Positions 3,951 through 26,597 of a stretch of DNA of 26,644 bases are shown one piece after another (position 1 is the stretch's first letter; every line of letters begins with the position of its first letter). Below the pieces are notes generated by a model that saw only the letters and a list, made by a program, of their open reading frames with translations, was not told where the DNA came from and searched no databases. Source of the stretch: a virus; IMG/VR virus record IMGVR_UViG_3300022214_000015, positions 1 through 26,644 of that record. The stretch is one strand, 5' to 3'. The position numbers were made by a program, and so were the translations under genes.

Positions 3951-3961
3951 CTGAACGGGAT

Positions 3962-3987: not shown

Positions 3988-3992
3988 TACAT

Positions 3993-3997
3993 GGAGG
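3993..3997 (+). promoter_or_regulatory. Ribosome-binding site that sets a GTG start at 4006
   Basis: GGAGG is followed by 8 bases and then GTG. An in-frame ATG at 3991 overlaps this motif and has only the hairpin upstream of it, so the GTG at 4006 is the better start for the spike gene. Confidence 0.6.
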
Positions 3998-4005
3998 AAG
4001 AAATA

Positions 4006-5478: not shown

Positions 5479-5503
5479 CTGTGTAAACTAGGAAGGATCA
5501 GAG

Positions 5504-6097: not shown

Positions 6098-6108
6098 CGG
6101 AGGGTACA

Positions 6109-6573: not shown

Positions 6574-6579
6574 TAAGTA

Positions 6580-9500: not shown

Positions 9501-11226
9501 CGCAGTAAACGCTGAAATCACGCGGCACAAAATCGACAGTGATTACGTGTACGGAAGCGTGGACATGAACAACTCCTACTGGTCCCTTCTGTCACCGGCG
9601 GATCAGGAGTCGTCTATTGGCGACCCGATTACGGACGTTGCGCAGCGGGAGTTCTTCCACCACCACGCCACAAACTTCGTGGTTTCCTATGACCGTATGC
9701 GTGTCATCAGCCCATTCACGACAGATGGTGGCGAGTTCCACGCGCACTGGCACTATGCTGCTGATCCGGTCGCCAATGGTACCGACACGGTGGAGATTCG
9801 CACGTCCAGCGGCGTGATGTTCCGTAAGTACGTTATCCATGATGGTGTGTCGCCCACCTATTCCGACCTTAATAGCCCCCCAGGATTTACGGTGCAGTGC
9901 TTCCGCGAGGTAATCACCCTGCCGCTGGCGACAAGCCTTGAAAGCGTGTTTAAGAAGTACGGGCGGCTATGCACCACATTCGAGGTGGGAGAAACTACGC
10001 AGAGTGCTCCGACCACCACGCGGGCAATCAAGTATCAGTCAGCCCTTGGATTTGACCAGACCTCTATGGAGGGTGTGTCGATTCAGGCCACCCCGTTTGT
10101 GCATGTTGTGTTCAGCGCAGAGGAGGACGGGTCAACGCCCAACCACGCGCTGGCCCCGGTTGGCATATCGTATTACGTGGTCAAGGGCGGGTCGAGCGAC
10201 AAGCACTATGTCCATAACCTCGTGCCAAACCAGTATTACCATGTGACGGAAACCGACCTGAATGGGACGTACTTTCGATACGACTTCACGCCGACGACTT
10301 CGAGCACGCTCAGGGCCAATGACGCCGGTGTGCTTGAGTTCGCGGCACTCGACATCGGCTCCCAGGTGGATTTCCTCGTAATCGGCAGCGAGTCCATAAA
10401 CACGGGGAACATATCCGAGACGCCAGCGCGTACCGTGTCGTGGCTTTCCGATGGTAGCGACGATGAACTGGCTGTTACGGATACCGGAGTAATGGTTTAT
10501 GACGGGGTTCAGGTTACGCCGACAATCATCGTTGACTCGTATGAGTACATAACGAATGACAAGATTTCCGACGCTGGATACCGCATCGGAGACTTTTTGA
10601 AATCTGATATTCTGACGATGACTGATGGTGGGTCGCTGTCGTACACGCCTCCGTTTGTGCCACCGCCCGCGTACACGGAGAAGAAGATATTCCGTGGCAA
10701 CGTAGCGTTCTACCCGAACGGTGATCGTGGACTTGCGTACTTTACGGTTGAGCCGTCTGATTCCAACTACTCGGATGTGCTGGCCGATGAAGATGACAAC
10801 ACGTTCATCAAGACGTGGCCGACAATCGCGGGCATCATCACGATTTCTCACGCAATCGTGTCGGTTGAACTGGACGACCCGGCTGGATTCAATGGCACCA
10901 TACGAACGATCAAGTTCAAGGCCAGGATCAGGTCGTCTGACATTGGCGGGGTTGGAAATCCCGGCCTGTTGATTCAGCTTAACAAGGATAGCGCAAGCGG
11001 AGAATTGGTCGCAATTTCGTACATCGAGGTTCCATCCGTCACAACGGCACAGGTTGTAGAGATAGAGTCTACACCGATACCCGTTAGCATCACCACGGAC
11101 AACATGGCCAGGTGCGTGCTGACTGCAAGGCCCGCTGCATCTGTCTACTCGGAAACCTACTCGATGGAGATTTCTTCGATGTGGGTTGAGACAACCGGAA
11201 GCGGTAGCGAGAAGGTGATTAAGTGA
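6580..11226 (+). CDS. Giant tail protein with heparinase II/III-like polysaccharide lyase core
   Basis: This 1548-residue protein is the largest in the window. Residues about 1-490 look like two or three successive beta-sandwich modules (strand patterns recur near 60-165, 185-310 and 315-440). Residues about 498-860 are helical and begin HPRMWLNDN. This region resembles the alpha/alpha toroid of heparinase II/III, alginate lyase and related polysaccharide lyases, with N646-N647-F648-Y649 in a long helical stretch and a YDWLHDELG motif. Residues about 880-1150 form a beta-rich domain with G898-H-Q-H901-N-D903-Q-G-H906, similar to the His/Asp-rich strand of the heparinase II/III C-terminal sandwich. 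The remaining 400 residues are beta modules that may mediate attachment or trimerisation. A tail-borne capsule or exopolysaccharide depolymerase is the best reading. The exact lyase family and its catalytic residues are unverified, and the ribosome-binding site is weak. Confidence 0.65.
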   Translation: MATFSEYISNLSLTVTGTDSPVAVSEDALTVVSSSYNQVYETSSTSPVRSPDIGLPYLSADDLVAGSTWLIYYQASVGNQSNSVPSTCYLVDVPVATRPSGASDLAGVEVECTGTGTPYAMNGTLLCGMLEYSPDGTKNIEFSFKNLATGGLCSVTGVSLVAIRVDDKLTKSATGGDYWHDAQSSFSTVQTNSTTVASTIHVTNYTPDSTDDFWLIVSGESLDMPISELVTMWVEVDGVQILTPWVKNSADSRDSHCFFLSKKLSLSGGVPHEIRLLGRKQSGTGLASFKRGRITLLKLSSFGSHTYLSLQQPSVTTEYPSRQEIISGTFTPSSSGENVLVIANGAVSHSPGAAAAITGHVTNMTATGELVDFSGFAHPSSTAEVVAMTCGGSEVVNAQQVYSYQLSSQSGFGASNPLVGKTLWPHTLMMLGLSTNPTPGVVMLSASDSIGRDNMLDSPSGTYDGDPISSPMNGYDSIGLANISDSGSASIVYEGVIPVAHPRMWLNDNIGGGWANRLAYLQAHTSGTRWTTLLNYIDRSPAHYALAYKMTGTTSYRDSALARIDTILSNASINMSSSGVTYRETMRTFALTYDWLHDELGSVRKQKMQDYMLGAVFAFMNDKHPDAAAVTHTGGDPSPNGWDKGNNFYVAYTMMCAYAAIALYHEQPLDWGWPPGSSTRRQFILPRHHTQGGPLFTDLYEYTIDRIDQATDPSNPVWTRQGFGSFIGGGWIEGSEYGRGVGRAMMETLLMLRNAAGQPYFDNFGFASDIVQYMYYETQPGSTAQICLGEATINEYITVHTYNRLEMLFCVGGLLGTQVGKWGQYWLDNIFTDETSANAHDFTDREMLMYCEDFAEENAYLSLGLGWFSIGNGFLNSRNVWSSTGTSATISAVHFAQGHQHNDQGHIQIFKGGPGGRLGGWLLGEPQGLATGGISGDPWHTKFHNTYLWVPSNYPGGWMQATGIQLRREPGFENAVNAEITRHKIDSDYVYGSVDMNNSYWSLLSPADQESSIGDPITDVAQREFFHHHATNFVVSYDRMRVISPFTTDGGEFHAHWHYAADPVANGTDTVEIRTSSGVMFRKYVIHDGVSPTYSDLNSPPGFTVQCFREVITLPLATSLESVFKKYGRLCTTFEVGETTQSAPTTTRAIKYQSALGFDQTSMEGVSIQATPFVHVVFSAEEDGSTPNHALAPVGISYYVVKGGSSDKHYVHNLVPNQYYHVTETDLNGTYFRYDFTPTTSSTLRANDAGVLEFAALDIGSQVDFLVIGSESINTGNISETPARTVSWLSDGSDDELAVTDTGVMVYDGVQVTPTIIVDSYEYITNDKISDAGYRIGDFLKSDILTMTDGGSLSYTPPFVPPPAYTEKKIFRGNVAFYPNGDRGLAYFTVEPSDSNYSDVLADEDDNTFIKTWPTIAGIITISHAIVSVELDDPAGFNGTIRTIKFKARIRSSDIGGVGNPGLLIQLNKDSASGELVAISYIEVPSVTTAQVVEIESTPIPVSITTDNMARCVLTARPAASVYSETYSMEISSMWVETTGSGSEKVIK

Positions 11227-11927
11227 CACGCGGAGAGATGAGAGAGACGGTTCGGGTGCTGCTTGGAGAGACTGTTGAGGATGGCGTGAAGGACACTGAA
11301 ATCAACACGCAGTTGGACAATGCGTGCGTCAATGTGGCCATTGCAACCAAGTGCCTCACCACGTTCGCCAATATGGAGACGATAGCGTTTGACGATGCGG
11401 GGCTTGACCCGCTGGATGACAACGACATCCCGCGCATAGAAGGTCGATACGGGCTACCCGATGATTTACTCGCCATTCAGGATGTCATTATCCTTGACGG
11501 GTCCGTTAAGACGTACCCGCAGAAGAAGGACATCCATGAACTGGAGCGGCTGTACGCCACGGTGACGGGCGGGCTTCCGCGCTTCTACGGAGTCGGGTTT
11601 GGTTCCACGTCACAGACAGCCCCCACGCGGGGCGATATATGGTTCCGCCCGTGGCCGGATGCGGCCTATGACGTTACCATTCACTACATCCAGCGTCCAA
11701 GCAAGATGGACGAGGACAATGACTACAGCGAGTTGCCAGAGTTCTCGCACATGGCGGTGTGCTACTACGCAACGATGGTGTTGTCGAGGAAGTGGAAGGA
11801 CCGGGAGCTTCTCTCTGAGATGGCGGCGCTGTATCGCAATGAGATGAACGAGATTCAGACGATGGTTCACCAGCAGGATATGACGGGCAGCGGCCAGATC
11901 AGGAACGTGTACCAGAGGCGCAGATGA
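11223..11927 (+). CDS. Head-to-tail adaptor protein
   Basis: This 234-residue protein starts at GTG 11223, which overlaps the stop of the preceding gene as GTGA. It has an N-terminal helical pair (GEMRETVRVLLGET and INTQLDNACVNVAIATKC), a central beta region (YGLPDDLLAIQDVIILDG) and a late WFRPWPDAAYDVTIHYIQRPSKM segment followed by a long C-terminal helix. This pattern is typical of podovirus adaptor or gp11-like tail tubular A proteins, which form a ring between portal and nozzle. It is followed by the nozzle candidate through an ATGA overlap, the usual gene order. The family call is from pattern memory. Confidence 0.68.
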   Translation: MTRGEMRETVRVLLGETVEDGVKDTEINTQLDNACVNVAIATKCLTTFANMETIAFDDAGLDPLDDNDIPRIEGRYGLPDDLLAIQDVIILDGSVKTYPQKKDIHELERLYATVTGGLPRFYGVGFGSTSQTAPTRGDIWFRPWPDAAYDVTIHYIQRPSKMDEDNDYSELPEFSHMAVCYYATMVLSRKWKDRELLSEMAALYRNEMNEIQTMVHQQDMTGSGQIRNVYQRRR

Positions 11928-14326
11928 CAGTCAGCCGGTATTCAGAACCCAAGATCGTCCTCGACGGATTCCCCTACGGGGTGAACGAGTTGTCGGACCC
12001 GACGCACCTGCGCCCCGGAGAACTTGCCGGGGTGAAGAACATGGTGCTTCGTGATGGCCGCACGCTCGAATCCCGTCTCGGGCAGACCGGGGAGCATGAC
12101 CGTTCATACCGACCGCTTGCTTACGGGTGCAAGCTGCTGCACCGCTATATGTCGCTTGCGAACGACAAGCGCCTGCTGCTGGTTAGCCGCGGCAAGATGT
12201 ACGCGGACACCGACGACAACCGCCTGTTCGATGAGGTGGTGTCGATCACGGGCACCCCCGCGACACAGCAGTTCTACGACTCCGTGCTGTTCTGCTCCGA
12301 TGAGTACGAGTTGGCTGCGTGGGAGCCTGGGGTCGGCGTGGAGAGGCCGAACTTAAACGTATTCATTGGTAACCAGAACTTTATTAAGGCATGGACGCAG
12401 GGTGAATATGACCCGGCGTGGACCCCCGGAGAAGGCGGGGGCTATCTCCCGTATAGCAAGTTTGAATACTACATGACGTTCGACGTGTCTATCGGTGACA
12501 CATTTCTTGGTGAAACTGGCCCAGTAGAAACAACTATTGCTCGCGCTGGTTCTTCTGCAACAACTTACGCAGATGCGTTCTGGTATAGCAGGGTTGACCT
12601 GTCGATATACGCTGCGTTCTATGCCGTGTCCGTTGGAATTGATACTGCCGGTTCTGGACACGCCGTAAATGACAAGGTCACTGTTACCGGTGGCACCATT
12701 CTCAATGTTACTTCCATAGACGGTGGAGGCGGTGTAACCGGAGTTGAGATATACGACGCCGTTTTGAACTCATCGGAGCCAACCAACCCGGTATCGCAAA
12801 CTGCTACGACTGGCAGCGGAATAAATGCCAAGTTTGATCTGGCTTTCAGTTCAATGTCTGACAACAAGGTTCTATTCCTCAGACCGAACGATTACTGGCT
12901 CAGCAGGATACCGCCATATGTAAGCGCGATAAACTTCTATCGCACTCCACCATTGGATTCATTCTCTGACTACCCGTATGACGGGAACGCATACTCGGCG
13001 TTTTGGGTTGGTAGTGTGTCAATGGATTCAATCCGTGCGACCACATACGATCCGCTGTTGGGGCCGGTTATCTTCGAGGATGACGGCTCTATATTCCAGA
13101 AGCAAATGCGGAAGCCCCCGCTAACGTCCCCACCGCGCTCCAAGCACATGACGCTCCACAAGGGACGGCTGTGGATGACATCCCCATCCATCAAGGGGAA
13201 CAACGAAACCGAGTGGACGTACTACCCGGACCTGATTGCGTTCTCCGCGTTCGAGGCCAACGGTACCGAACCGATGGTGTTCTTCCCCGAGAGCACCTTC
13301 CCGGTTGGAGCGGGTGAGCCGGACGAAATCACGGGGATACGCTCATGGCGGAACCAGGTGTTGCTCGCGTGGAAGGCGAACAAGATGTACGCCGTCCTCG
13401 GCGGTGACGACGAACTGGACTTCGGCATCCCCAACATCTCGGTGCAACTGATCGACCCGAACGTGGGGTGCATCGCACCGAACACGATCTGCGAAGTAGA
13501 CGGCGGGATTGCATGGCTCAGTAACCGTGGCCCGTACATCTATGACGGAACGGCCCCGAGGCCGCTTGCGGCTCACAAGGTCAAGAAGTCGTTTGAGCGT
13601 ATCCCGAACAACCGGCGCACGAGTGCCTGCGCGGTCTACAACTCGAAGGAACGCGAGTACACGATCTTCTACACCGACCCGAACGGTACGACTTCGGCAT
13701 ACAATCGGCACTACATGACCTACAATTTCGGCACTGCAACGTGGACGATGGGGGTACTGGAACGTGGCGTCAACGTCGCTCTGGAAGTCAGGGACGCGGA
13801 TGTTCAGTCCTATACGCTGTGGGGACTTGAGGACAACACCGGGACAATGCTTGCCAGTACGCCACTGGTACAGCGCGCGGAAAGTGGATTTCTGGAGGGC
13901 TTCGTTACACCAGCATACGGAGATTCGCAGAAGATTGACTTCTCTGCGGACCTCGGGTTCCTTGATGGCGGAGCACCGTTCATGGACAAGAAGTTCAAGG
14001 AGATTATCGTTGAAGCCTCCTCGCAGGTTCCGTTGACGCTGGACATTCTGATTGACAACAAGTACGACAGCCGCGCAGCGGGCACATCGCTGACCCTTGA
14101 CCCGCCTGTTTCAGATGACACGCTCATTTGGGGCGAGGGGAATTGGGGCGAGAAGAATTGGGGCAGTTCCTTGCAGGGTTCAACGAGCATCGCTCTTACC
14201 CGCAACCTGGATACGCTTCCGGTGGGGAAGTCCATCCGGCCCATCATATCGGGCATCAATATATATGACCCGGTGAAGATACACTCGATCACGATTTACT
14301 ATGAGCCGAAGGAAGGCACACGATGA
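11924..14326 (+). CDS. Tail nozzle (tubular B-like) protein with an inserted domain
   Basis: This 800-residue protein starts at ATG 11924, which overlaps the adaptor stop. Its N-terminus (FPYGVNELSDPTHLRPGEL, then KNMVLRDGRTLESRLG) is typical of podovirus tail nozzle or stabilisation proteins that form a beta-propeller tube. Residues about 145-320 look like an insertion, with different composition and a GSGHAVNDKVTVTGG...GGGVTGV pattern known from repetitive beta domains in phage structural proteins. After it the propeller-like body resumes (LHKGRLWMTSPS, SWRNQVLLAWKANKMY, GGIAWLSNRGPYIYDG). Near the C-terminus three WG steps recur (W736, W741, W746). It would form the hexameric tail tip through which DNA leaves. 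Nozzle is the most probable role, though the family is not verified. Confidence 0.7.
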   Translation: MTVSRYSEPKIVLDGFPYGVNELSDPTHLRPGELAGVKNMVLRDGRTLESRLGQTGEHDRSYRPLAYGCKLLHRYMSLANDKRLLLVSRGKMYADTDDNRLFDEVVSITGTPATQQFYDSVLFCSDEYELAAWEPGVGVERPNLNVFIGNQNFIKAWTQGEYDPAWTPGEGGGYLPYSKFEYYMTFDVSIGDTFLGETGPVETTIARAGSSATTYADAFWYSRVDLSIYAAFYAVSVGIDTAGSGHAVNDKVTVTGGTILNVTSIDGGGGVTGVEIYDAVLNSSEPTNPVSQTATTGSGINAKFDLAFSSMSDNKVLFLRPNDYWLSRIPPYVSAINFYRTPPLDSFSDYPYDGNAYSAFWVGSVSMDSIRATTYDPLLGPVIFEDDGSIFQKQMRKPPLTSPPRSKHMTLHKGRLWMTSPSIKGNNETEWTYYPDLIAFSAFEANGTEPMVFFPESTFPVGAGEPDEITGIRSWRNQVLLAWKANKMYAVLGGDDELDFGIPNISVQLIDPNVGCIAPNTICEVDGGIAWLSNRGPYIYDGTAPRPLAAHKVKKSFERIPNNRRTSACAVYNSKEREYTIFYTDPNGTTSAYNRHYMTYNFGTATWTMGVLERGVNVALEVRDADVQSYTLWGLEDNTGTMLASTPLVQRAESGFLEGFVTPAYGDSQKIDFSADLGFLDGGAPFMDKKFKEIIVEASSQVPLTLDILIDNKYDSRAAGTSLTLDPPVSDDTLIWGEGNWGEKNWGSSLQGSTSIALTRNLDTLPVGKSIRPIISGINIYDPVKIHSITIYYEPKEGTR

Positions 14327-14919
14327 GCACGCTTAACTACACCTACACGACCCTGCCCGATGGGACTACGGCGCTTGGCACTCAGGTAATGAAGAACTTC
14401 AATGACGTTAGGGCCGTCATTAACGGGCTGACGCAGGAGAACATTGCAACCGGCGCGGTTGACTCGGATGAGATTGCCACCGGGGCTGTGACGGCAAACA
14501 AGCTTGCTTCTGATTCTGTCATCGAAGCGAAGGTTGACTACTCGAAGGCAAACTCGGGTGTCAAGGCTATCCAGTACGGCCCCGACTATACGAATGTTGG
14601 GGCGGGCGGGCTTAGATTTGTTCGTGTGCATAAGGTTATGAGCGTTACAACGGCTACGACAGTGCAGACCCTCAACATAGACTGGGGTGGTGGGGATGGG
14701 GTTGATGGCTCAACCACGTTCGAGTCTCCTCCGACAGTTGTTGGGATAGAGATTGAAGAAACTGATTCCCCGACATGCTTTGGCGCTTCAACCGTTCTTG
14801 CTGCGAAGTATGTGACAGAGATAACCGAGACGGGCTGCATCGTGAATATTCGGTTTAGCGTTGCTGCCAGCGCCGGGGACATCATCATTCATCTTACGGT
14901 ACTTGGTCCGGTGGCGTAA
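14323..14919 (+). CDS. Small tail-fibre-like protein
   Basis: This 198-residue protein starts at ATG 14323 through an ATGA overlap with the nozzle gene. The N-terminal half has the phage-fibre repeat style, with NFNDVRAVINGLTQENI and then two units of IATGAV followed by NKLA, a pattern common in trimeric tail-fibre shafts. The C-terminal half (about 85-198) is a compact beta domain (TVQTLNIDWGGG, VVGIEIEETD, GCIVNIRFSV, IIIHLTVLGPVA), perhaps a receptor-binding or fibre-tip domain. It lies between the nozzle and a small protein of unknown role. A short fibre or tail-tip component is most likely. No catalytic motif is visible. Confidence 0.6.
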   Translation: MSTLNYTYTTLPDGTTALGTQVMKNFNDVRAVINGLTQENIATGAVDSDEIATGAVTANKLASDSVIEAKVDYSKANSGVKAIQYGPDYTNVGAGGLRFVRVHKVMSVTTATTVQTLNIDWGGGDGVDGSTTFESPPTVVGIEIEETDSPTCFGASTVLAAKYVTEITETGCIVNIRFSVAASAGDIIIHLTVLGPVA

Positions 14920-15245
14920 TGAGAACGCGGCTATATCAGAGAATCAGCGGCGGGCATGAGGACATCAGCGACACAGAGCGCGGGTTCCTCGGCGCGCTCA
15001 ACGAGGACTTGCAGGAGATGGACTCGCGTATAAATCGGGCGCTCAAATACAAGACCCGAATCGTTGCAACGCGAGTGGTGCAGACCGGGACGGAGATCAG
15101 GCACAACCTGGGGCGCGTGCCGCGACACGTCTCGGTCGCACCGAAATCAGATGTTCGCTGGTGGGAGTACAAGCCCCGCACACGGGACAGCATATTTCTC
15201 AAGACCAGCGCCGATGCTGACCTTGAAGTCAGGATTGAGGGATAA
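14919..15245 (+). CDS. Small protein between tail fibre and ejection genes
   Basis: This 108-residue protein has a start that overlaps the previous stop as TAATG. The first half is a charged helix (ISDTERGFLGALNEDLQEMDSR) and the second half is beta-rich (TEIRHNLGRVPRHVSVAP), ending in DADLEVRIEG. The HNLGRVP...V motif is common at the end of phage tail-fibre and tail-tip proteins, where it precedes a final beta domain. It is probably a small virion or assembly protein. I do not recognise a specific family. It precedes the first ejection-protein candidate with almost no gap, so it is part of the same operon. Confidence 0.6.
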   Translation: MRTRLYQRISGGHEDISDTERGFLGALNEDLQEMDSRINRALKYKTRIVATRVVQTGTEIRHNLGRVPRHVSVAPKSDVRWWEYKPRTRDSIFLKTSADADLEVRIEG

Positions 15246-15247
15246 AC

Positions 15248-15949
15248 ATGGCTGTAGAACGCAGAAGAGGGACCAGGAATGGCCAGGCGTATGACATCTG
15301 GTATGACACCGATACCAACACTTGGGTTGAGTATGGGGCCGGTCCAGATGAATTGGACCCAAATGCGTCCATCGGCCTAAAAAGTACAGCACGAGACACG
15401 CGGTTCAATCGTGACCTTGCCCGGTACGACGCTGAGGCTCAGAAGTACCGGCAGGCTTTGCTTGGCGCGTTCGGCATCCAGTCGCAGACGGCACAGGGCT
15501 TGGCGCAGCGCGGAACTCAGGCCACGGTCAGCCAGTTCCTTCAGCGCCGAGGCATTGACTCGACGCGGGGTGGGCTTGGGGCGTCCCTCCAGAACAGCAC
15601 GCAGGCGCAGTTGCAGGGCCAGACGATGCAGGCGCAGCAGAACTTCTCGACCACGCTGTACGGGCTCATGCAGCAACAGCGTGATGCGTTCATTAACAAG
15701 GAGTTCGACTTCTTCAGGCGCATTGACTTGATGGGGTACGAGGCCGAGTTGCAGAAGGACATCATGCGCTTCCAGCAACAGTTGCAAAGCGACCTGTCAT
15801 TCAGGGATGCGTTCATGGGGATACTTGGGACGGCGGGAACAGTCGCAGCGGCGCTTATTCCGGGGGCTGGCCCGGCGGTGGCGGCGGGAGTTGCCGCATC
15901 ACAGGCCACGAACAGTCGGAACTTTGAGAACCAGTACCGCTATGAGTAG
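15248..15949 (+). CDS. Putative internal virion (ejection) protein, small
   Basis: This 233-residue protein has GAGGGAT upstream of ATG 15248. Residues about 50-190 are Gln/Ala-rich and helical (repeated TQAQLQGQTMQAQQ and LMQQQRDAFINKEF), consistent with a long coiled-coil bundle. Near the C-terminus (about 195-225) there is a hydrophobic Gly/Ala stretch (GILGTAGTVAAALIPGAGP) that could insert into a membrane. Size, composition and position before two larger proteins mirror T7 gp14, gp15 and gp16, the core proteins ejected into the cell envelope during infection. The equivalence is by architecture and order, not demonstrated homology. It would act as the outer-membrane part of the ejection conduit. 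Confidence 0.58.
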   Translation: MAVERRRGTRNGQAYDIWYDTDTNTWVEYGAGPDELDPNASIGLKSTARDTRFNRDLARYDAEAQKYRQALLGAFGIQSQTAQGLAQRGTQATVSQFLQRRGIDSTRGGLGASLQNSTQAQLQGQTMQAQQNFSTTLYGLMQQQRDAFINKEFDFFRRIDLMGYEAELQKDIMRFQQQLQSDLSFRDAFMGILGTAGTVAAALIPGAGPAVAAGVAASQATNSRNFENQYRYE

Positions 15950-15961
15950 GAGATGAGATAG

Positions 15962-17140
15962 ATGCCACAGTACACAGGGGTTGATAAGTTCCCGGTTGGA
16001 CAGGGCGCGATGTCGTTTGCGCATGAATTCCTCCAGCGGTTCCTAGCGGATCGTGATCAGCGGGCGCAGTATGCGCGAGAGAGCCAGACGGCGCAGACTA
16101 AACAGCGCCAGGAGATGGACCTTCTCAGGGCTCAGGACCAGATGGCGCGGTCACGCGGCGAGCAACAGGCTATGTTTGAGCACACGCTTACGCAGGAAGA
16201 TGACAAGCGGCTCAAGACAATCTCTGGTCTTGAGAAGTCAGCCTATGGTGGAGCGCCCATCACTCCTGCAATCGTTGACATCTATGCGAGGGCGGCGAAG
16301 GTATCGCCGGAAGATGCAAAGGCTTATCTTGAGTCGCAGGCCGAGGCAGGGAAGGTTGAGCGTGCTCACGAAATCCAGCAGCGCCAGACAGGGGGGAGCA
16401 AGGGCGGCGCGGACATCACCGAGGCGACCAGGGCTCTGAATCTTAGATATGGTCTTTCGCCTGATAGTCAAGTTGCGAGCCCGGATGATTTCAATGCCAG
16501 AATCAATGCGTTCCGCCAAGACCCTGAAGGCGGCTCTGCGCTTCTTGAGTACGAGCGTGTTAATGGGAGGCCCATGCTTACCCCGCAGGCTCCAGATGAG
16601 GCAAAAATCAACACGGACGTAAAGAACTTCGAGTCTGGTTGGCTCGCATACTACAACAACACCAGCAAAAATCGCGGTGAGTTTCAACAGCCTATGGTTG
16701 GGGCCACCACCCCGCCGATAGACCCGACTACGGGCGAGGTAATCGACAAGAGCTTGGCACATGATGTTGCGGTTACGGCTGCTCGCCAGAATATTACACC
16801 GGAGAAGGCCGCTGTCATCGTTGTGTCCAGAATGGAGATTGCCAATCTGGCTCAAGAGTTCGGGATTGATGACACAGCATCCCCGCTATTCAGCAAGGAA
16901 GATGTGGACGCCGTTTCCTCCGCACTTGGGATTAAAATACCCGTCAAGGCAGGGGGGCTTTCTCTTAATGTGCTCGGCTCTCTGGTTGGAATGGGGGCTA
17001 TCACAAGAGAGCAGGCATACGCTCTGATCGACAGGCTGACATCCCCAGGGAGCCAGCTTGGTTCTGCATACAGGGATACCGGACTCCCCACTGGAAGCCC
17101 GAAGAAGAACCTTCCTGTCTCTCAATACTTGAGGCGGTAA
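15962..17140 (+). CDS. Putative internal virion (ejection) protein, medium
   Basis: This 392-residue protein starts at ATG 15962 after a GGAG motif. The N-terminal 120 residues are strongly helical and Gln/Arg-rich (FLQRFLADRDQRAQYARESQ onward). The middle is less ordered, and the C-terminal third has a hydrophobic region (VKAGGLSLNVLGSLVGMG) before a short basic tail (PKKNLPVSQYLRR). It stands between the small and the giant ejection-protein candidates, the slot of the gp15-like component in T7-type phages. No enzymatic motif is visible. The stop codon is followed at once by the ATG of the next gene. The role is inferred from order and helical composition. Confidence 0.55.
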   Translation: MPQYTGVDKFPVGQGAMSFAHEFLQRFLADRDQRAQYARESQTAQTKQRQEMDLLRAQDQMARSRGEQQAMFEHTLTQEDDKRLKTISGLEKSAYGGAPITPAIVDIYARAAKVSPEDAKAYLESQAEAGKVERAHEIQQRQTGGSKGGADITEATRALNLRYGLSPDSQVASPDDFNARINAFRQDPEGGSALLEYERVNGRPMLTPQAPDEAKINTDVKNFESGWLAYYNNTSKNRGEFQQPMVGATTPPIDPTTGEVIDKSLAHDVAVTAARQNITPEKAAVIVVSRMEIANLAQEFGIDDTASPLFSKEDVDAVSSALGIKIPVKAGGLSLNVLGSLVGMGAITREQAYALIDRLTSPGSQLGSAYRDTGLPTGSPKKNLPVSQYLRR

Positions 17141-20100
17141 ATGGCTACCAGCGACGAAGAACTGCTGCGCATCCAGAACGAGTTGCGCGCACAATCCGAG
17201 GGAACTAAGCAGCCCATCCGTCCGACAAACGCGGGTGGCAAGAAGCGTTCCCAGGTTGAGGACTTCATCCGAAAGGAAGAAGCCAAGCTGATTGACCCCA
17301 AGCCCCGTATTGGCGCAGTCAGAAAGGGGCAGGAGTTTTCTCAGAAGCAGGCGTTGCGTGGGTTGCAAAAGATTGAGAACGCGATCAATCATATCGAAGG
17401 GGTTACGGCTGGAATTATCCAGTACGAGCGTGCGAAGGTTGAGGAAGCAGCGGCGCAGGCCGACAAGGAAGGGCAGACGTTCATAGGGCACGCCATCACC
17501 AATCCGCAAAAACCAGACCCAATCGGAATCGCTAAGGCTGCTATTGGCGGATGGAAGGACAAGACGAAGTATTCAGAGGCGATGCAGGGGATGAAGGGGG
17601 TTGTCCCCCCAATACCCATTCCTGGCAGAACACCGCTAATGATGACGTATGAAGTTGGAAAGCCCCTTGATCTTCTCGCCCCAACATCTATGTCGCTCCC
17701 CATTAACATCCCGGCGAGGGTCGCCACCAAGTTCGCTGTCGGCGAGGTTTCCGCGTTGTTCAAGGGTGCCGATGAAATAGCGGGGCTTACCCGGCCAACG
17801 AGGGAAACGGCAGAGTTCTTGAAGGAAGCTGGTAGCCGTATTGGCGAGGCGTTCAATCAGGCATACCACTTGAAGAAGATGGGAGTGCCGGGGTTTGCCA
17901 AACTCAAGAGAGAGCACGCCGGGGAACTACATGCTATCGCTAACATCCCGCAGTCCGAGTACACCAAGCGTGCCGTTGAACTCGTACCCGACCCGAAGCG
18001 CATGGAGCATATCTATGTGACTGTAGATCAGGCTCCGGTACGCAGGATCGCCAACCCACAGAAGGTCATCAAGAAGTACAAGTCAAGCATTGACGACCTT
18101 ACCAATCGCCACGCCAGGCTTAAGAAGAAGGCCGAGTTGATAGAGGCCAAGATTTCCGCTGTTGAGAGCAGCCCAGATATTCTCAGCGCGATTGAAGCCG
18201 CGAAGGGCAGAGAGAGAGCGAAGGCGTACTCTAAGATAGAGAAGAACATCGACCGCTTTGCTGCGAAAGAGGTTGATCTTCGCGCTAAGATTCCGGGGCT
18301 GAAGGCCGCGCATGAGGAGGCCACTAACGCTCTCCACGCCAGCACGACCAATACGCTTCGTGGCAACAAGTGGAACATCCGCCCGAACAAGGAGATTATC
18401 GACACCGCCACAAAGAAGGAGCGCGCCCGTGCTGCGGTCGGTGCGAACCAGAAGGCGTTTAACCGGGCTGCGGCTGACGCTGCGAAGGAAGGCAAGGCGG
18501 CGGCAAGACTTCTGACAAAGGACTTCAAGACCCGCGAGGAAGCAATCCTCGACCGTGAAGTGAAGCGGCTTCATCGTGACTCCATTCGCATCCAGCGCGA
18601 GATTTCTGCCATCGAACTGAAGCAGCAGAGCATTGCTGAAAACATCGCGCTCGTAACGCACATGGATGAGATGGTAAAGACGGGCGAGTACGCCAAGAAC
18701 GAAGCGGCATTTCGGGATGCGTTCAATGCGCTCTCCCCCAACGAGAAGGAAGCCGCCGACCTGCTCAAGACATACAAGGACATCCAGCAGGCAAAGAAAC
18801 TTGAGGAAGGGTTCATATCCGCTGAGAAGGCGCTTGGTGTGGAGCAGCGGCAAGGGCACGAATACTGGCCGCGTCACGCCAACACCAAAGATGAGGCGCT
18901 GGCCGGGATCAATCGGGCCATTGAGGAACAGGGTCCGGTGAAGTGGTTGGTTGACAAGAAGGCCGAACTGGAGGCCATGCCGCGCAACGAGTTCATGGCG
19001 ATGGTTCAAAAGGCCGGGCGCAAGTTGATGGGGAAGCCTGGGTTTACTCGCAAGCGCACCATCGGGGCGACACTCGATGAGATGGGTGAGGCTCGCGCCA
19101 TGTTTGACATGGACCTGCCCGCTGTGCTGGAAGCGGAGAATATATCCATTGCCCGGACGAAGGCGGACAAGATGCTGATAACGAAGGCGCATCAGTATCT
19201 CAATGAACTTGGTATCCCGAGGATGGTGGAGCAGCCACTTCTGGACAGCGGGTCGTGGGTTCAATACCCGAAGTACATGCAGGAAATGGGATGGGTTCCG
19301 AAGGATGTAATGATACCGAAGGAAATCGCCAACGAACTGTTCCCCATGATGGGGCGCATGATTAGCGCGGGGGACGGTGCCGGGCTGGAGTTTATCTGGA
19401 ACATGGTGGACCGGGCAACCGGGCTGTACCGAAACTGGAACCTGTTTGTTGCGCCGGAATACTTCGTCCGAAACGTGGTTGGCAACTACCTGAACAACTA
19501 CGCAGTACACGGCATGGGGGCGAGTTCCTTTCAGGACTATGTAATCGCGGCCAGATATAACGCAAAACAGATGGCAACGCAGAGCGAGAAGCTGCGCGCA
19601 TCCGGATGGACCCCATTGTCCGAAACCGAGTTGATGCCCAACTCGCTAACCCCGATGCCCAATATGACCGAGGCCGAGTTCATGCGGTGGGCTGAGAAGC
19701 AGCGCATCATCAATGCAGGCCAGACATCAGAAGCGGCGATTGACTTCCGTGGATACGGCGGAAGTAGAAAGAAGTCCGGGTTCTTCAACTGGCTCAATGA
19801 GGAAAATAAACTCATCAGTACGGGCCATGATGTGCAGCGCATCACTGAAAACGACGCCCGACTCGCGGCTTACTTCTACCAGGTGCGGCGCGGAAAGACC
19901 CCGGATCAGGCGGTAGAGGGCGTACTCAAGTCCCTTTTTGACTACCAACTCGGGCTGACTAACTTCGAGCGCAAGTGGGTTCGCAAGTTCTTCCCGTTCT
20001 ATTCGTGGCCGCGCTTCAACATACCACTGCAACTGGAGATGTTGTCGCAGTACCCGAGCCGGTATCTTGACATGGCGCGTGCGGCGCGGGCGTGGGAGAC

Positions 20101-20770: not shown

Positions 20771-21064
20771 ATGGGTGGCATAAAGTCAGACGGCAACGGA
20801 GGTTACTGGATTTCGAAGGGGATGATGGGATTCTTTGCCATCGTCGTCACTGTTCTGCTATTCTTCGCCGGAAACGGGATAGCCGAGTACAACCGCGACT
20901 ACGATAACCTTGTCGCTGCCGAGAAGGAGCACGACGCCAGGCTCGCCAAGCTGGAGACAGCGGTTGTCAACATCCAGAACAACCGCGAGGACATCAAGGA
21001 AATCCGACAGGACATGAAGGATATGAACAAGAAACTCGACAGCATTGCACAGATCAGGCGGTGA
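20771..21064 (+). CDS. Membrane-anchored coiled-coil protein of the lysis cassette (i-spanin-like topology)
   Basis: This 97-residue protein has a short positively charged N-terminus, one transmembrane segment at about residues 18-38 (GFFAIVVTVLLFFAG) and a charged coiled-coil tail from about 42 to 97 (repeated E/K/D with heptad Leu, Ile and Met, such as KEIRQDMKDMNKKLD). The basic N-terminus favours N-in, C-out topology, the layout of inner-membrane spanins. The alternative is a holin-accessory protein of XhlA type, but XhlA has its coiled coil before the membrane segment. It opens the lysis cassette, 4 bases ahead of the holin candidate. I saw no o-spanin-type lipoprotein partner, so a spanin role is unproven. 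Confidence 0.6.
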   Translation: MGGIKSDGNGGYWISKGMMGFFAIVVTVLLFFAGNGIAEYNRDYDNLVAAEKEHDARLAKLETAVVNIQNNREDIKEIRQDMKDMNKKLDSIAQIRR

Positions 21065-21068
21065 AACG

Positions 21069-21263
21069 ATGAAGCATAAGGACCGGATTGAACTCATGTT
21101 CGCAGTGACGCTGTGCGGGACGCTGCTGGTTGGGACTGTTGCCATCCCTTTTCTGATGTTCACCGGCCACAACGTAGCCAAAGAGGTTTCCATCGCGCTC
21201 ATCAGCCAGTGGGCGGTGGTGGCTGGTCTGATGTGGAAGTCGCTTGGCGGGAGGGAGCCGTGA
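21069..21263 (+). CDS. Putative holin, two membrane segments
   Basis: The 64-residue protein starts at ATG 21069, a better start than the in-frame upstream codon at 21045 that lies inside the preceding gene. It has a basic N-terminus (MKHKDRIE), a first hydrophobic segment at about 10-31 (FAVTLCGTLLVGTVAIPFLMF), a short polar turn (TGHNVAKE), a second segment at about 40-57 (IALISQWAVVAGLMW) and a short charged tail. Two membrane segments in fewer than 70 residues, directly before an endolysin, are typical of a class II holin, which forms inner-membrane lesions to release the endolysin. Its stop overlaps the endolysin start as GTGA. The function is inferred from topology and position. Confidence 0.6.
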   Translation: MKHKDRIELMFAVTLCGTLLVGTVAIPFLMFTGHNVAKEVSIALISQWAVVAGLMWKSLGGREP

Positions 21264-21697
21264 GCCTGGATTCCAAGCAGTTCGCGGACCTGATCGAACG
21301 GGTGCTCGGCGGATTCGGGAAGGAACTCAACTCGCCCGTGGCGGTCAAGCTGCTGCTCGGGACCGCCGCCCATGAGAGCCGCTTCGGGACGTACTTGAAG
21401 CAAATCCGCGGCCCGGCCATCGGCATATTCCAGATGGAGCCGGATACCTTCCGCTGGCTGCAAGACACTTATCAAGACACATATGTTTATCTCAAGGGGC
21501 GGGAGCCGGAGGAGATGGAGTGGGATTTGCGGCTTGCGATTCTCGCGGCCCGCTTGCGATACTGGATCGTGCCCAAGCCGTTGCCCCACGATGACGTACA
21601 AAGTATTGCGGGGTACTGGAAGCGGTGGTATAACACATCTGCCGGGGCGGGTACCGAGGAGCAGTTCATCGACGCCTATGAGAAGTACGTTAGTTAA
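21260..21697 (+). CDS. Endolysin, lysozyme-fold (SLT-like) muramidase or transglycosylase
   Basis: This 145-residue protein starts at GTG 21260, overlapping the holin stop. The lysozyme-like signature is clear: A-A-H-E39-S-R-F-G, with E39 as the likely catalytic acid, followed after a dozen residues by G55-I-F-Q-M-E-P61, as in SLT-type transglycosylases and related phage endolysins. The rest is helical and ends with a YWKRWYNTSAGAGT segment. There is no signal peptide or membrane segment, so release to the periplasm should depend on a holin. Upstream in-frame starts would extend into the holin gene and are less likely. It cleaves the glycan strands of peptidoglycan in the third step of the cassette. 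Confidence 0.8.
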   Translation: MSLDSKQFADLIERVLGGFGKELNSPVAVKLLLGTAAHESRFGTYLKQIRGPAIGIFQMEPDTFRWLQDTYQDTYVYLKGREPEEMEWDLRLAILAARLRYWIVPKPLPHDDVQSIAGYWKRWYNTSAGAGTEEQFIDAYEKYVS

Positions 21698-21712
21698 CAA
21701 GGAGGACAAGCG

Positions 21713-21883
21713 ATGAAATGGTATACGAAGTCAATCACGGTGCTCGGCGTGGTTATCACGGCGCTCTCGGCCATCCTCGCCTTCATGCAGACCATCACCC
21801 CGGAGATTGCCAAGACGATGGAAGTCGTCGGCGCGTCCATCGTGGCGCTCGGCATCCGCAAGAAGTTGGAAGCCCCCAAGTGA
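21713..21883 (+). CDS. Small membrane protein of the lysis cassette
   Basis: This 56-residue protein is short and easily missed. It starts at an ATG with AAGGAGG at about 21699-21705, and its stop overlaps the next gene's start as GTGA. A basic N-terminus (MKWYTK) precedes a hydrophobic segment at about residues 7-25 (ITVLGVVITALSAILAFM). A short polar turn and a second, weaker hydrophobic stretch at about 36-46 (VVGASIVALGI) follow, with a basic tail (RKKLEAPK). Holin, antiholin or pinholin-like roles are all possible given its place between the endolysin and the outer-membrane phospholipase. The sequence alone does not separate them. Confidence 0.68.
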   Translation: MKWYTKSITVLGVVITALSAILAFMQTITPEIAKTMEVVGASIVALGIRKKLEAPK

Positions 21884-22719
21884 GACGGCTCAACTGGACG
21901 GCGCTCATCCTGATCCTGGTGGCACTGGCCGTCGCCGGGATCGCCTCGGTCAAATGCGCGAAGGCCGACCCGGTGGGGCCAAGGGAGCCGTCCCCCCTGC
22001 GCTTCCGGCAGTTCAAGCCCGCCTACATCGCCACCGACTACTCGACCTCCGAGGACTGGCGCAAGGACTACACGCCCTACCTCAAGGCTCAGGCGTCGAT
22101 GGCTATGAGCATCCTGCGCTCGCCTGTGGGCCTCGGACCTGCCTCGCTGGACCCGGAGTTGGCCTTCTCATGGAAAGCCAATCTGTGGCCAATTGGGGCG
22201 CCTTCTAGCCCCATTCAGGAGAATATCTACATGCCCGAAGCGTTCATCCGGTTCAACGAGGACGAATCGGGCTGGTGGCGGGGTGCCCGGGCGGGATGGA
22301 TGCACGCTTCCAGCGGCACCGATACCATGAGCGCGTCCATCGACCGGGTACTGGTGGAGTCCAAGTTCGGGGCGGAGATGCTGCTGAACGACCAGTATTT
22401 CCTCTACCTGACCGGGTACGTCCGGGGCTGGTGGGTCGCCGGGGTGGGCAGCGAGACAGCGGACATCGTGGACTACATCAACTTTGCCCGCTTGCGTGAC
22501 TTCGGCGGCGAGGTTATGCTTACCCTCGAAGTGCCGGACGTAATCCGCGTGGTGGGCGAGTTCGGGCTGTCCTATCAGCACTATGAGGTATACATCCCGC
22601 TGGCCGATGCGTATGATATTGACCTGTTCGGGCAGCTATGGAACGGGAACGCGAACGGGATTAACAACTACCAGGATCGCGCCACCAGCGGCGGCGTGGG
22701 CTTGGCGTTGGTTCGATGA
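21880..22719 (+). CDS. Outer-membrane phospholipase A (OMPLA/PldA)-like protein
   Basis: This 279-residue protein starts at GTG 21880. PldA in E. coli hydrolyses phospholipids in the outer membrane through a 12-strand beta-barrel. Here residues 1-29 look like a Sec signal (RR, then LILILVALAVAG, with likely cleavage after A-K-A29). The PldA-type block SSP(109-111)...E114-N-x-Y117-x-P119-E-x-F122 is followed by W140-M-H142-A-S144-S-G146, matching the H-D-S-N-G active-site motif of E. coli PldA, and by S151-A-S-I-D155-R156, matching the PldA S-R-S-W-N-R segment. His142 and Ser144 would be the catalytic pair, and the third triad position reads Asp rather than Asn. The rest alternates as beta strands with aromatic girdles. 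It is the last gene of the lysis cassette, so outer-membrane disruption at lysis is the likely role. The C-terminus ends V-R, not the aromatic residue usual for BAM substrates. Confidence 0.75.
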   Translation: MRRLNWTALILILVALAVAGIASVKCAKADPVGPREPSPLRFRQFKPAYIATDYSTSEDWRKDYTPYLKAQASMAMSILRSPVGLGPASLDPELAFSWKANLWPIGAPSSPIQENIYMPEAFIRFNEDESGWWRGARAGWMHASSGTDTMSASIDRVLVESKFGAEMLLNDQYFLYLTGYVRGWWVAGVGSETADIVDYINFARLRDFGGEVMLTLEVPDVIRVVGEFGLSYQHYEVYIPLADAYDIDLFGQLWNGNANGINNYQDRATSGGVGLALVR

Positions 22720-24297: not shown

Positions 24298-24558
24298 CTA
24301 CTCCCACCCGCACCGTTTGCGCGACTCTCGGGACACCTTGCGGTCTTTCGCGTGTTCGTAGGCGCAGGCCATGCACACCATGACGGCCCCAACCTCGCCC
24401 CCGTCGTCACGCTTCAGATCGTACACGTCATTGAGGCAAATCTCCTGCTTGCCGTTCCCACACATGGTGCATTTCTCGTACAGCGTTTCGTCAATGTTCG
24501 GACCCGTGCGGTCCTCGGGCGTGAAGCGCCGGTGCATCATCTGGTCAAAATTGCTCAT
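24298..24558 (-). CDS. Small putative zinc-binding protein (two CxxC)
   Basis: This 86-residue protein is the last gene of the - strand operon and ends next to the convergent phosphoesterase stop. It has C30-T-M-C33 and C62-M-A-C65, an arrangement that would bind one zinc ion, plus an extra C41 and a basic C-terminal tail (KDRKVSRESRKRCG). Its start overlaps the stop of the upstream gene as ATGA. It resembles the many short zinc-ribbon proteins of phage early regions. These may bind nucleic acid or host proteins, but no family is recognised. Confidence 0.7.
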   Translation of the reverse strand: MSNFDQMMHRRFTPEDRTGPNIDETLYEKCTMCGNGKQEICLNDVYDLKRDDGGEVGAVMVCMACAYEHAKDRKVSRESRKRCGWE

Positions 24559-24803
24559 TCTTCATCCGTCCCTTCCAGTGCGCGGCGGGCGATACCAGCG
24601 CAGTCCATAGTGTGCGGTGGCTGACTGGCTATCTCGCGCAGCGCCTTCTCCAGCCGTTCCTCGCGGGGGCGCGTGTTCCACAGTTCTACTAGGGCGACAC
24701 CATCAAGCATCCACGGCCACTCATCCTTACAACAAGCAAACCCATCACCAAAATCATATGCCTCGCCCCCACAAAACGGGCACGGCTTAAGTTTCTCGCT
24801 CAT
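24555..24803 (-). CDS. Lar-like small zinc-finger protein (restriction-alleviation family signature)
   Basis: This 82-residue protein starts with LKPC8-P-F-C11-G-G and continues with C24-C25, then a tryptophan-containing V-E-L-W42-N-T-R45 segment. The CPFCGG...C..C...WN[TR]R pattern is the signature of the Lar restriction-alleviation family named from the Rac prophage. Many phage members have this signature without tested anti-restriction activity. A ribosome-binding site (AAAGGAG, 24814-24820) lies inside the upstream gene. The C-terminal 35 residues are helical. Its position in a methyltransferase operon fits a DNA-protection theme, but that is inference. Confidence 0.7.
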   Translation of the reverse strand: MSEKLKPCPFCGGEAYDFGDGFACCKDEWPWMLDGVALVELWNTRPREERLEKALREIASQPPHTMDCAGIARRALEGTDEE

Positions 24804-24963
24804 GGCTCAATCGCTCCTTTCGTTTCAAGTCGTATCGTTTCCGGGCGTACTCGCGCACCCGTTTCATCTTGCGCTTGTGCGCGCACGGCTCACAGCGTAC
24901 ACGGTTCGACCGCGAGTAGAACTCCCGCCCGCAATCCTCACACTTCTTCCGAGTCTCGTTCAT
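24787..24963 (-). CDS. Very small basic zinc-ribbon protein
   Basis: This 58-residue protein is below common length cut-offs. Its ATG overlaps the methyltransferase stop as ATGA (24960-24963), and its end overlaps the next gene by 17 bases. It has C8-E-D-C11 and C24-E-P-C27, a clean zinc-ribbon pair, and then a Lys/Arg-rich helix (HKRKMKRVREYARKRYD) typical of nucleic-acid binding. The tight coupling on both sides and the conserved cysteine spacing argue that it is translated. It may be a small DNA- or RNA-binding early protein. No named family is recognised. Confidence 0.68.
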   Translation of the reverse strand: MNETRKKCEDCGREFYSRSNRVRCEPCAHKRKMKRVREYARKRYDLKRKERLSHERET

Positions 24964-25940
24964 AGCGGCAGCACTTCCTGCTCAAGCCTGCGGGCAGCTA
25001 TCCCGATGTAGTCCGCATTGAGTTCAATCCCGATAGCCTTGCGGTTGTTTTCCTTTGCGACGTACCCAACCGTACCGGCCCCGTTGAACGGGTCCAGCAC
25101 CGTGTCGCCCTTCCTGGTTCCCGCGACGATGCAGCGCCGGGCTAGTTCTTCGGGCATCACCGCGAAGTGCGCTTCCTTGAACGGTTGGGTTGTGATCGAC
25201 CAGACCGTGCGGGCGTTGGCCCCTTTAATCTCATCATATACTTTCGCAGTCTGTTGTGATGTTCCATACACCCTATCTCTACCGCATTTTGGCGCACGCA
25301 TATTTTCACCACTCGACGGTTTTACTTCTTCTCGGATTGCTTCTAGATCGTAGTAGTACCGTTCCGATTTCGACAGCAGGAACAGGTATTCGTGCGCCTT
25401 GGTGGGCCGGTCGGTGATGGACTCCGGCATCGGGTTCGGCTTCGCCCAGATGATGTCGCTCCGTAGATACCATCCGTCCGCTTGCAGCGCGAACGCCACC
25501 CGCCACGGGATGCCCACGAGGTCTTTGGGCTTGAGATTAACCACTGGTGGACGTGATGGTTTAGACGTATCGACAGCTGCTTGTTTTCCGCCATCTGTTT
25601 CTCGCCCGAAATAGCGGTCATTAAATCCTGCCATCGTCCCGCCGCCCTCTGATCTTGCCCCGGCATAGCTATCCCCCAGATTCAGCCACAGCGTCCCGTC
25701 GTCGCGCAGCACCCGCCGTACCTCGCGGAACACCGCGACCATGCTGGCGACGTACTCATCGGGCGTCGGTTCGAGGCCGAGTTGCCCATCCACCCCATAA
25801 TCCCGAAGCCCCCAGTACGGCGGCGAGGTCACGCAGCACTGGACGGACTGTTCAGGGAGAGACGGCAGCACCGAGCGCACATCACCGTGATAGATCGTGA
25901 TGCCCGCGTGGTCATAGTACGGAGTCATCATCTCGTTCAT
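24960..25940 (-). CDS. DNA methyltransferase, beta-class with TSPPY motif (N4-cytosine or N6-adenine)
   Basis: This protein has 326 residues if translated from ATG 25940. It carries T38-S-P-P-Y42-W-G-L (motif IV, catalytic), then a central region with IWAKPNPMPESITDRPTKAHEYLF and, near the C-terminus, D283-P-F-N-G-A-G-T (motif I, S-adenosylmethionine binding). The order IV then I marks a beta-class enzyme. SPPY is commoner in N4-cytosine enzymes, but N6-adenine enzymes also use it. It probably modifies phage DNA against host restriction. The start is uncertain: TTG 25955 and ATG 25931 or 25928 are alternatives, and the Shine-Dalgarno-like GAGG fits none ideally. It overlaps the RusA-like gene by 29 bases. 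No restriction endonuclease is nearby, so it is an orphan. Confidence 0.85.
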   Translation of the reverse strand: MNEMMTPYYDHAGITIYHGDVRSVLPSLPEQSVQCCVTSPPYWGLRDYGVDGQLGLEPTPDEYVASMVAVFREVRRVLRDDGTLWLNLGDSYAGARSEGGGTMAGFNDRYFGRETDGGKQAAVDTSKPSRPPVVNLKPKDLVGIPWRVAFALQADGWYLRSDIIWAKPNPMPESITDRPTKAHEYLFLLSKSERYYYDLEAIREEVKPSSGENMRAPKCGRDRVYGTSQQTAKVYDEIKGANARTVWSITTQPFKEAHFAVMPEELARRCIVAGTRKGDTVLDPFNGAGTVGYVAKENNRKAIGIELNADYIGIAARRLEQEVLPL

Positions 25941-26310
25941 ATTCCTCAATCTCAACGTCCGTGAAGTCCTGCCCCTTGCCGATCAGCTTGGTGGCCTCCA
26001 GCCGGTACACCTGGCGGTCGTTGAAGCACCCCTTCAACCCGTCCAGCACGGCCTTCGCCATGTTGTCTACGTCAGCGCCGGTTATCATGGGAGCAACCGC
26101 GACGGGCTTCTTGCTCTTGTCGGTGAAGTGGGCGACGATCCGCACCCGCAGCGGTCCGGACAACTCCGGCACCTTTGCCAGTAGCGCCATCTGCGACACC
26201 TTCTTTTCGTATGCTTTCGTGGCGCTTGGCGTGTAGACGTTCCCGTACTTCCCAACCCGTGGGCGTTCCTTTGCGACACACGGCCCAGGTATCGTGAAGG
26301 TGTACCTCAC
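25912..26310 (-). CDS. rusA: RusA-like Holliday-junction resolvase
   Basis: This 132-residue protein starts at GTG 26310 in a GTGA overlap with the preceding stop, with AGGAG at 26316-26320. Matching E. coli RusA, it has A-D80-V-D82-N-M-A-K86-A-V-L-D90-G-L followed by F-N-D98-R-Q-V. D80, D82 and D98 would be the metal-binding acidic residues and K86 the conserved lysine. The length is close to the 120 residues of E. coli RusA. It cuts four-way junctions during phage recombination and before packaging. Longer in-frame starts to 26406 would overlap the upstream gene by 100 bases and lack a ribosome-binding site. Confidence 0.87.
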   Translation of the reverse strand: MRYTFTIPGPCVAKERPRVGKYGNVYTPSATKAYEKKVSQMALLAKVPELSGPLRVRIVAHFTDKSKKPVAVAPMITGADVDNMAKAVLDGLKGCFNDRQVYRLEATKLIGKGQDFTDVEIEEYERDDDSVL

Positions 26311-26597
26311 TTCTTCTCCTTCATGCGGGCGGCGAACTCGTGCGCGGCGTGAGTTGGTCGATAGCCAACCGTTCCGCGTGACGTGTGCGTTTCGTACTGT
26401 TCCCAAAAACCAAGGTCAACCATCAAATCGACTACCGGGTTTTTTTCTCCACGGAGCTTTTCCACTCCCCCCAAAAACCCTTGAGCAAAGCTACGCTCGC
26501 TCGGGAAAAACACCCACAACGCCCGCTCCATCCGCTCGTACTCCTCGCGGGGGACGGGGATGCAGCCGCGGAGACAATCAATGTCGGCGCGGATCAA
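26307..26597 (-). CDS. Unrecognised protein of the early operon, TTG start
   Basis: The 96-residue protein has a TTG start at 26597 that overlaps the preceding stop as TTGA, with AAGGA 7 bases upstream, which fits the overlap pattern of this operon. The N-terminus is charged and helical (PREEYERMERALWVF). The middle reads NPVVDLMVDLGFWEQY, followed by a short basic tail (AARMKEKK). No catalytic or metal motif is visible. The frame stays open to the right edge, so a longer protein starting outside the window cannot be excluded, but the TTG start is favoured by the overlap. It is co-transcribed with the RusA-like resolvase, so a DNA-metabolism role is possible. Confidence 0.6.
   Translation of the reverse strand: MIRADIDCLRGCIPVPREEYERMERALWVFFPSERSFAQGFLGGVEKLRGEKNPVVDLMVDLGFWEQYETHTSRGTVGYRPTHAAHEFAARMKEKK
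26316..26320 (-). promoter_or_regulatory. Ribosome-binding site that sets the RusA-like GTG start
   Basis: AGGAG on the - strand lies 5 bases before GTG 26310 and inside the upstream gene. It decides against the longer in-frame starts. Confidence 0.6.

Follow-up and report, generated by a model that had tools for sequence, protein, structure and literature searches.

The window analyzed here, 26,644 bases long, is a whole virus record of IMG/VR (IMGVR_UViG_3300022214_000015), a linear fragment. Genes for a portal and a major head protein are followed by genes for tail-type proteins and then by a lysis cassette (positions 20771 to 22719), the last gene of which, referred to here as PLA1, codes for a 279-amino-acid homologue of the outer membrane phospholipase A of the PldA/OMPLA type (21880 to 22719, plus strand). 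Downstream of the cassette there are genes for a possible metallopeptidase and a phage metallophosphoesterase, and then, clustered on the minus strand, for a Lar-like restriction-alleviation protein (24555 to 24803), a DNA methyltransferase (24960 to 25955), and a RusA resolvase (25912 to 26406). Contig G002 is 99.5% identical to positions 1 to 19116 and comes from the same virus; it extends 15.7 kb further upstream and stops short of the cassette. The window is a real tailed phage that was encountered in two contigs, only one of which includes the PLA1 region. The sole strongly divergent stretch with respect to G002 was a 164-amino-acid gene located after the major head protein (3456 to 3950), at a decoration- or head-type position, whose alleles were 51% identical in protein, as if the whole gene had been swapped. 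Promoter and terminator scans of the window gave a signal at chance level.

The original prediction had placed a phospholipase within a lysis cassette, and the gene order bears this out: two genes for small membrane proteins come first, followed by the endolysin gene, one more small membrane gene, and PLA1, all on the plus strand. The first gene (20771 to 21064) codes for a 97-amino-acid protein with an N-terminal transmembrane segment (residues 19 to 37 by hydropathy) followed by a coiled coil, which could be Rz-like (i-spanin topology) or associated with the holin/antiholin. In PHROG, it matched phrog_1152 (Rz-like spanin) and an unknown family (E value, 1.4e-5) as well as a holin/anti-holin family (5.5e-5), an assignment that remains weak because coiled coils draw such matches. 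The second product (21069 to 21263) is a 64-amino-acid membrane protein with a transmembrane segment at residues 13 to 31 and a second hydrophobic stretch, for which no convincing family match was found. The gene after the endolysin (21713 to 21883) encodes 56 amino acids, with a transmembrane segment at residues 7 to 25, a second apolar stretch, and a basic C terminus. The latter two are holin candidates on the grounds of size, hydropathy, and position only.

The endolysin itself (21260 to 21697; 145 amino acids) is of the lytic transglycosylase (SLT-like) type. It matched phrog_3108, of unknown function, with an E value of 1e-35 and, weakly, the Pfam SLT family (E value, 0.0094), and it contains a catalytic-type Glu in AAHES and a GIFQMEPDT motif, common to its relative on contig L003. 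A structure model of this protein was discarded since its confidence was too low. By tblastn, 149 deposited phage records had a match; most belong to phages of Vibrio, Klebsiella, and Pseudoalteromonas, and several annotate an endolysin or a lytic murein transglycosylase. Given the phage records of this endolysin family, the host is very likely Gram negative. In Pantoea phage Nufs112, a homologous endolysin is followed by two hypothetical genes, a transmembrane protein, and overlapping Rz/Rz1 genes, while the endolysin of the window is followed by a membrane gene and PLA1. This is a single comparison, and the intervening gene content differs.

The PLA1 frame is open from a GTG at 21880 to the stop at 22719, and its start and the stop codon of the 56-residue membrane gene before it share a four-base overlap (GTGA). 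A longer reading would begin at an ATG at 21718, and the N terminus thus added covers the 56-residue gene in another frame. We favored the start at 21880 because of the signal-like sequence behind it. As had been predicted, an N-terminal hydrophobic segment is followed by an A-K-A site and resembles a Sec signal peptide (residues 1 to 29, 21880 to 21966, plus strand, with putative cleavage after A-K-A). This call was made by eye from hydropathy and the A-x-A rule, without a predictor. The structural model has a helix at residues 6 to 25, with low confidence for residues 23 to 35. No lipobox is present in the signal sequence. The protein ends in LALVR, while E. coli PldA has an aromatic end.

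Several lines of evidence agree on the PldA-like identity first proposed from motifs alone. In a scan of 24,736 Pfam families, PLA1 (PF02253) was the only one named (E value, 1.4e-5), although the score of 25.3 bits falls just short of the curated gathering cutoff of 27. BLASTP against E. coli PldA (K-12 genome) gave an E value of 3e-10 across 236 residues, and the NCBIfam model for phospholipase A gave an E value of 1.1e-5, under its cutoff. A profile of 26 PldA proteins, all of them cellular, scored the window protein at 59.8 bits, while the best of 2,000 shuffled versions reached 10.3 bits and the second-best of the 219 window frames 0.8. Identity to E. coli PldA was about 22 to 28% (overall range, about 19 to 29%). 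In the phylogenetic tree, the window protein was the most divergent member of the set, with an end branch of 4.1 changes per site, and was unlike all the cellular PldA proteins sampled. It could not be placed, and one origin could not be separated from several, given the long branches. The conclusion that 21880 to 22719 encodes a divergent relative of PldA/OMPLA, and that the resemblance is not due to chance, holds. We refer to it as a divergent homologue and not as a formal Pfam member because it misses the Pfam cutoff and two conserved positions.

The AlphaFold2 model, built from an alignment of 21 sequences, was a barrel with 13 strand segments (mean pLDDT, 73; pTM, 0.66). The only Foldseek matches with an E value of <0.001 were the OMPLA structures of E. 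coli and Salmonella. Comparison by VIA-align with six OMPLA entries gave Z scores of 21.6 to 22.6 at 2.4 to 2.7 Å over 218 to 222 residues, the best being 1qd6 (Z score of 22.6, 2.4 Å over 218 residues), while the next barrel, an unrelated porin, had a Z score of 14.2. Thus, the structural comparison left the OMPLA entries of E. coli and Salmonella as the only strong solved matches, and the lack of a 12-strand barrel, which would have refuted the prediction, did not materialize, as the model has 12 to 13 strands. Since the alignment behind the model included OMPLA homologues, the model and the sequence evidence are not independent, and the former speaks for compatibility with the fold more than it provides separate proof. 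In a library of predicted viral structures, no OMPLA-like model was found at an E value of ≤0.001.

The motifs on which the identification had been based, H142-A-S144-S-G146, S151-A-S-I-D155-R156, and S109-S-P…Y117-x-P119-E, were confirmed at those positions, and they align to E. coli SSPFRETNYEPQ and HDSNGRSDPTSRSWNR. The SSPIQENIYMPE block (S109 to E120; 22204 to 22239, plus strand) is the counterpart of E. coli SSPFRETNYEPQ, which contains the calcium-site Ser106, and its residues S109, P111, and P119 were invariant across the 21 aligned sequences. In the catalytic segment (22303 to 22344, plus strand), H142, S144, S151, and D155 correspond to His142, Ser144, Ser152, and Asn156 of E. coli. 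Both H142 and S144 are kept and were invariant in the same alignment. The two calcium-site serines (S109 and S151, equivalent to Ser106 and Ser152) are kept as well. Because one loop residue (R147) is absent, Asn156 pairs with Asp155. Position 147, deleted here, is variable across the family (R, Q, K, L, N, or E).

The third triad position is therefore Asp in the window protein versus Asn in E. coli, and Asp was also found there in 2 of the 26 cellular homologues and in one of the phage relatives described below (L027). In other hydrolases, Ser-His-Asp is the commonest form of the triad, and Asp can fill the same role. Phospholipase activity is plausible with Asp at this position, for which there are no activity data. 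HASSG replaces the HxSNG motif, with Asn145 changed to Ser, while the motif Asn was present in all 26 cellular sequences and HxSNG in the phage proteins of L007, L027, and L038. HxSNG has been reported to be conserved in all bacterial PldA proteins (PMC5043575). With HxSNG and a calcium-site loop residue lost, a very divergent sequence, and a score below the Pfam cutoff, altered or reduced activity is possible. That the protein works in the manner of OMPLA is a separate claim, inferred from the catalytic His and Ser and the calcium-site serines, all of which are retained. The conservation of these key residues while identity fell to about 19 to 29% suggests that the active site is under selection. 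Among the relatives, the proteins of L038 (8013 to 8792) and L019 have an insertion of ca. 15 residues between HxSNG and the third triad position, and in L038 the third triad residue aligns to Glu.

Across 2.9 million IMG/VR contigs, profile searches detected very few PLA1 genes. Looking in viral databases for further copies adjoining endolysins, as the original prediction had proposed, yielded three more phage contigs (L007, L027, and L038), in all of which the gene lies beside or near a peptidoglycan hydrolase gene. The Pfam scores of these proteins were above the cutoff of 27 (154.7, 133, and 82.3 bits for L007, L027, and L038, respectively). In L038 (Pfam E value, 5.3e-23), the endolysin begins at the base right after the PLA1 stop codon. 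In L027 (1.8e-38), an endolysin of phrog_465 is located ca. 1.2 kb downstream, and a coiled-coil membrane protein matching an Rz-like spanin family (E value, 1.4e-5) lies between the two. The same interval of this 151-kb phage also contains a stand-alone response regulator receiver domain (8896 to 9354; Pfam E value, 1.8e-14). The PLA1 genes of L027 and L038 are both deep within phage late operons. In L007 (4.5e-45), whose contig carries single-stranded DNA-binding protein (SSB), DNA polymerase, and virion genes, a membrane-anchored, transglycosylase-like gene is found ca. 170 bases downstream of PLA1. The identity of this muralytic gene is weak (Pfam E value, 0.029, without a match in the PDB or in phages). 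L007 also encodes a Tad2-like (Thoeris anti-defense 2) protein (3305 to 3643; Pfam E value, 2e-20), which lies a few genes downstream of PLA1.

Between L027 and L038, both genes show relatedness (38% identity between endolysins and 32% between PLA1 proteins). Taken over all the contigs, the pairing does not look like one inherited block but like about three independent pairings, because three different endolysin types are involved. A random-placement test of the linkage gave a combined P value of about 0.004 to 0.02, a modest statistic that assumes randomly placed genes. No close relative of the window protein was found in IMG/VR or in deposited phages. Along similar lines, tblastn of 50,697 deposited phage records with PldA of E. 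coli, L007, L027, and L038 gave no genuine phage case, and no cultured phage carrying the gene came to light. Only five records matched (CAKLQH020000031.1, CAKLQF020000008.1, AGRM01000003.1, AFYI01000004.1, and MT839379.1), which proved to be bacterial DNA labeled as phage where checked. Two of them were fragments of bacterial chromosomes, and the remaining ones look bacterial from their titles and annotation; the types among them were Salmonella shotgun sequence, a contig of Acinetobacter rich in housekeeping genes, and a fragment whose genes are of bacterial type. Other candidates were also rejected. The pldA gene of L026, found at the edge of a provirus, clusters with cellular PldA of the Rhodocyclales type and was set aside as host flank; L040, the best of the Campylobacterota matches, is an ordinary bacterial gene; and neither L003 nor L006/G002 yielded a further PLA1.

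We scanned all six frames for short coding frames that carry a lipobox signal, an approach that recovered lambda Rz1 and T7 gene 18.7 as positive controls. No o-spanin or u-spanin lipoprotein frame was found in the window, nor any lipoprotein spanin frame in the stretches fetched around PLA1 in L027 and L038. One lipoprotein-like frame was detected in the extra 15.7 kb upstream of the same virus, in G002, and two candidates of this kind in 50 kb of the L007 contig. The record is a fragment, and the result is consistent with an absence of spanins without proving it. The original prediction had left open whether the enzyme replaces or assists spanins; replacement is favored, though undecided, because no o- or u-spanin lipoprotein gene was found in the record.

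Homology, the predicted fold, the catalytic His and Ser, the signal-like N terminus, the position in the cassette, the recurrence beside or near peptidoglycan hydrolase genes in other phages, and the lack of an identified lipoprotein spanin gene in the record are the basis for the reading that we consider probable: PLA1 is a secreted barrel phospholipase of the OMPLA family used for the outer membrane step of host lysis. Enzyme activity, location in the outer membrane, and an effect on lysis are inferred, in the absence of activity or lysis data, and latency and dimerization are inferred by analogy with E. coli OMPLA. PLA1 would be a late product, made along with the endolysin and the holin-like proteins; after export via Sec, the BAM machinery of the host would insert it into the outer membrane. 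The monomer would stay inactive as long as membrane asymmetry and calcium bridging exclude phospholipids from the outer leaflet. Once the holin has opened the inner membrane and the endolysin has cleared the peptidoglycan, the disturbed outer membrane would let phospholipids flip out, and PLA1 would then dimerize, bind calcium, and hydrolyze them through its putative Ser-His-Asp triad. The resulting lysophospholipids and fatty acids may break the last barrier. We also lean, with only slightly more conviction than doubt, toward a broader class of enzymatic disruptors, in which several unrelated phage lineages captured a host pldA and a latent enzyme of their own, activated by the collapse of the cell wall, replaces spanins.

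Some of the same data can be read otherwise. The 97-residue protein at 20771 to 21064, with its i-spanin-like topology and weak Rz-like matches, could act as a spanin together with an undetected or atypical partner, and then spanins would do the main step and the phospholipase would only speed up or clean up release. The Rz-like coiled-coil protein of L027 and the lipoprotein-like frame in the additional upstream sequence of G002 also fit such an accessory factor. However, matches of coiled coils to Rz families are unspecific, and no o- or u-spanin lipoprotein frame turned up in the window or in the fetched L027 and L038 stretches, so that we regard this as rather unlikely, if still worth keeping in mind. 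In bacteria, PldA is an enzyme of lipid homeostasis, and other outer membrane barrel proteins of unknown role are carried by phages, judging from names among the viral structure library matches. A passenger that modifies the envelope or metabolism (superinfection exclusion, membrane turnover, or fatty acid supply) without any part in lysis is conceivable. For such a gene, though, recurrence next to lysis genes would be unexpected, and PLA1 overlaps the cassette here, adjoins the endolysin in L038, and neighbors a transglycosylase-like gene in L007, which makes this explanation improbable in our judgment.

The very great branch length, the change from HxSNG to HASSG, the replacement of Asn156, and the deletion of R147 are what would be expected of a relic, i.e., a captured pldA drifting after loss of function or a barrel retained without enzymatic activity. 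Against this stand 279 open codons, a signal-like N terminus, and the conservation of the catalytic His and Ser and of the calcium-site serines, and we consider decay very unlikely. A bacterial gene in a misassembled or misbinned contig had to be taken into account, since the PldA matches checked in deposited phages were bacterial DNA and the pldA of L026 looks like a host gene. It is largely refuted and retains hardly any credibility: PLA1 is flanked by phage genes (the endolysin upstream and the metallophosphoesterase, methyltransferase, and RusA genes downstream), overlaps its neighbor, and differs from the cellular PldA proteins sampled, and the L027 and L038 copies sit deep in late operons.

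Taking PLA1 as a phospholipase for the outer membrane step of lysis, it can be compared with known systems. With E. coli PldA/OMPLA it shares the barrel fold (as predicted), His142/Ser144, the equivalents of Ser106 and Ser152, the SSPFRETNYEP-type block, and a putative signal peptide. In contrast, the E. coli gene is a housekeeping gene and this one belongs to a phage lysis cassette, with Asn156 changed to Asp, Asn145 changed to Ser, and Arg147 deleted. Spanins (lambda Rz/Rz1 and T1 gp11) carry out the same third step as proposed here, and the position of PLA1 in the cassette is like that of Rz/Rz1 in Nufs112, but they are nonenzymatic membrane fusion proteins with an outer membrane lipoprotein part, while PLA1 is homologous to a barrel enzyme. 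Disruptins, of the type found in phage phiKT, are a nonspanin route to breakage of the outer membrane (PMC12819732). These are short amphipathic antimicrobial peptides, unlike the 279-residue exported enzyme homologue described here. Mycobacteriophage LysB is a lipolytic enzyme of the lysis cassette that performs the third lysis step (PMC5707550). It cuts the mycolyl-arabinogalactan ester bonds of mycobacteria, a substrate different from that inferred for PLA1. Its fold is unrelated to that of OMPLA. Colicin lysis proteins work by activating the host outer membrane phospholipase A (PMC9517006). However, these bacteriocin release proteins are small lipoproteins that trigger a host enzyme, whereas here the phage would supply the enzyme. 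By analogy, colicin release may serve as a functional precedent and LysB as a precedent for the presence of a lipolytic enzyme among lysis genes.

No published report of a phage-encoded PldA or of a phospholipase in a lysis cassette was found in the open-access literature, in line with the earlier statement that no characterized phage lysis system of this type was known. Both the enzyme family and the cassette are known; their combination is new. In a survey of 677 phages of Gram-negative hosts, 91 (about 13%) had no identifiable spanin (PMC6139136), and whether spanin-less phages encode disruptins or other disruptors was called an open question in 2026 (PMC12819732). If the interpretation is true, a phage-encoded OMPLA would be a concrete and testable answer for some of these phages, with a different chemistry and with a structure and mutable catalytic residues that are already known. 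Phage lysis would also be linked to the activation of the host outer membrane phospholipase A at colicin release.
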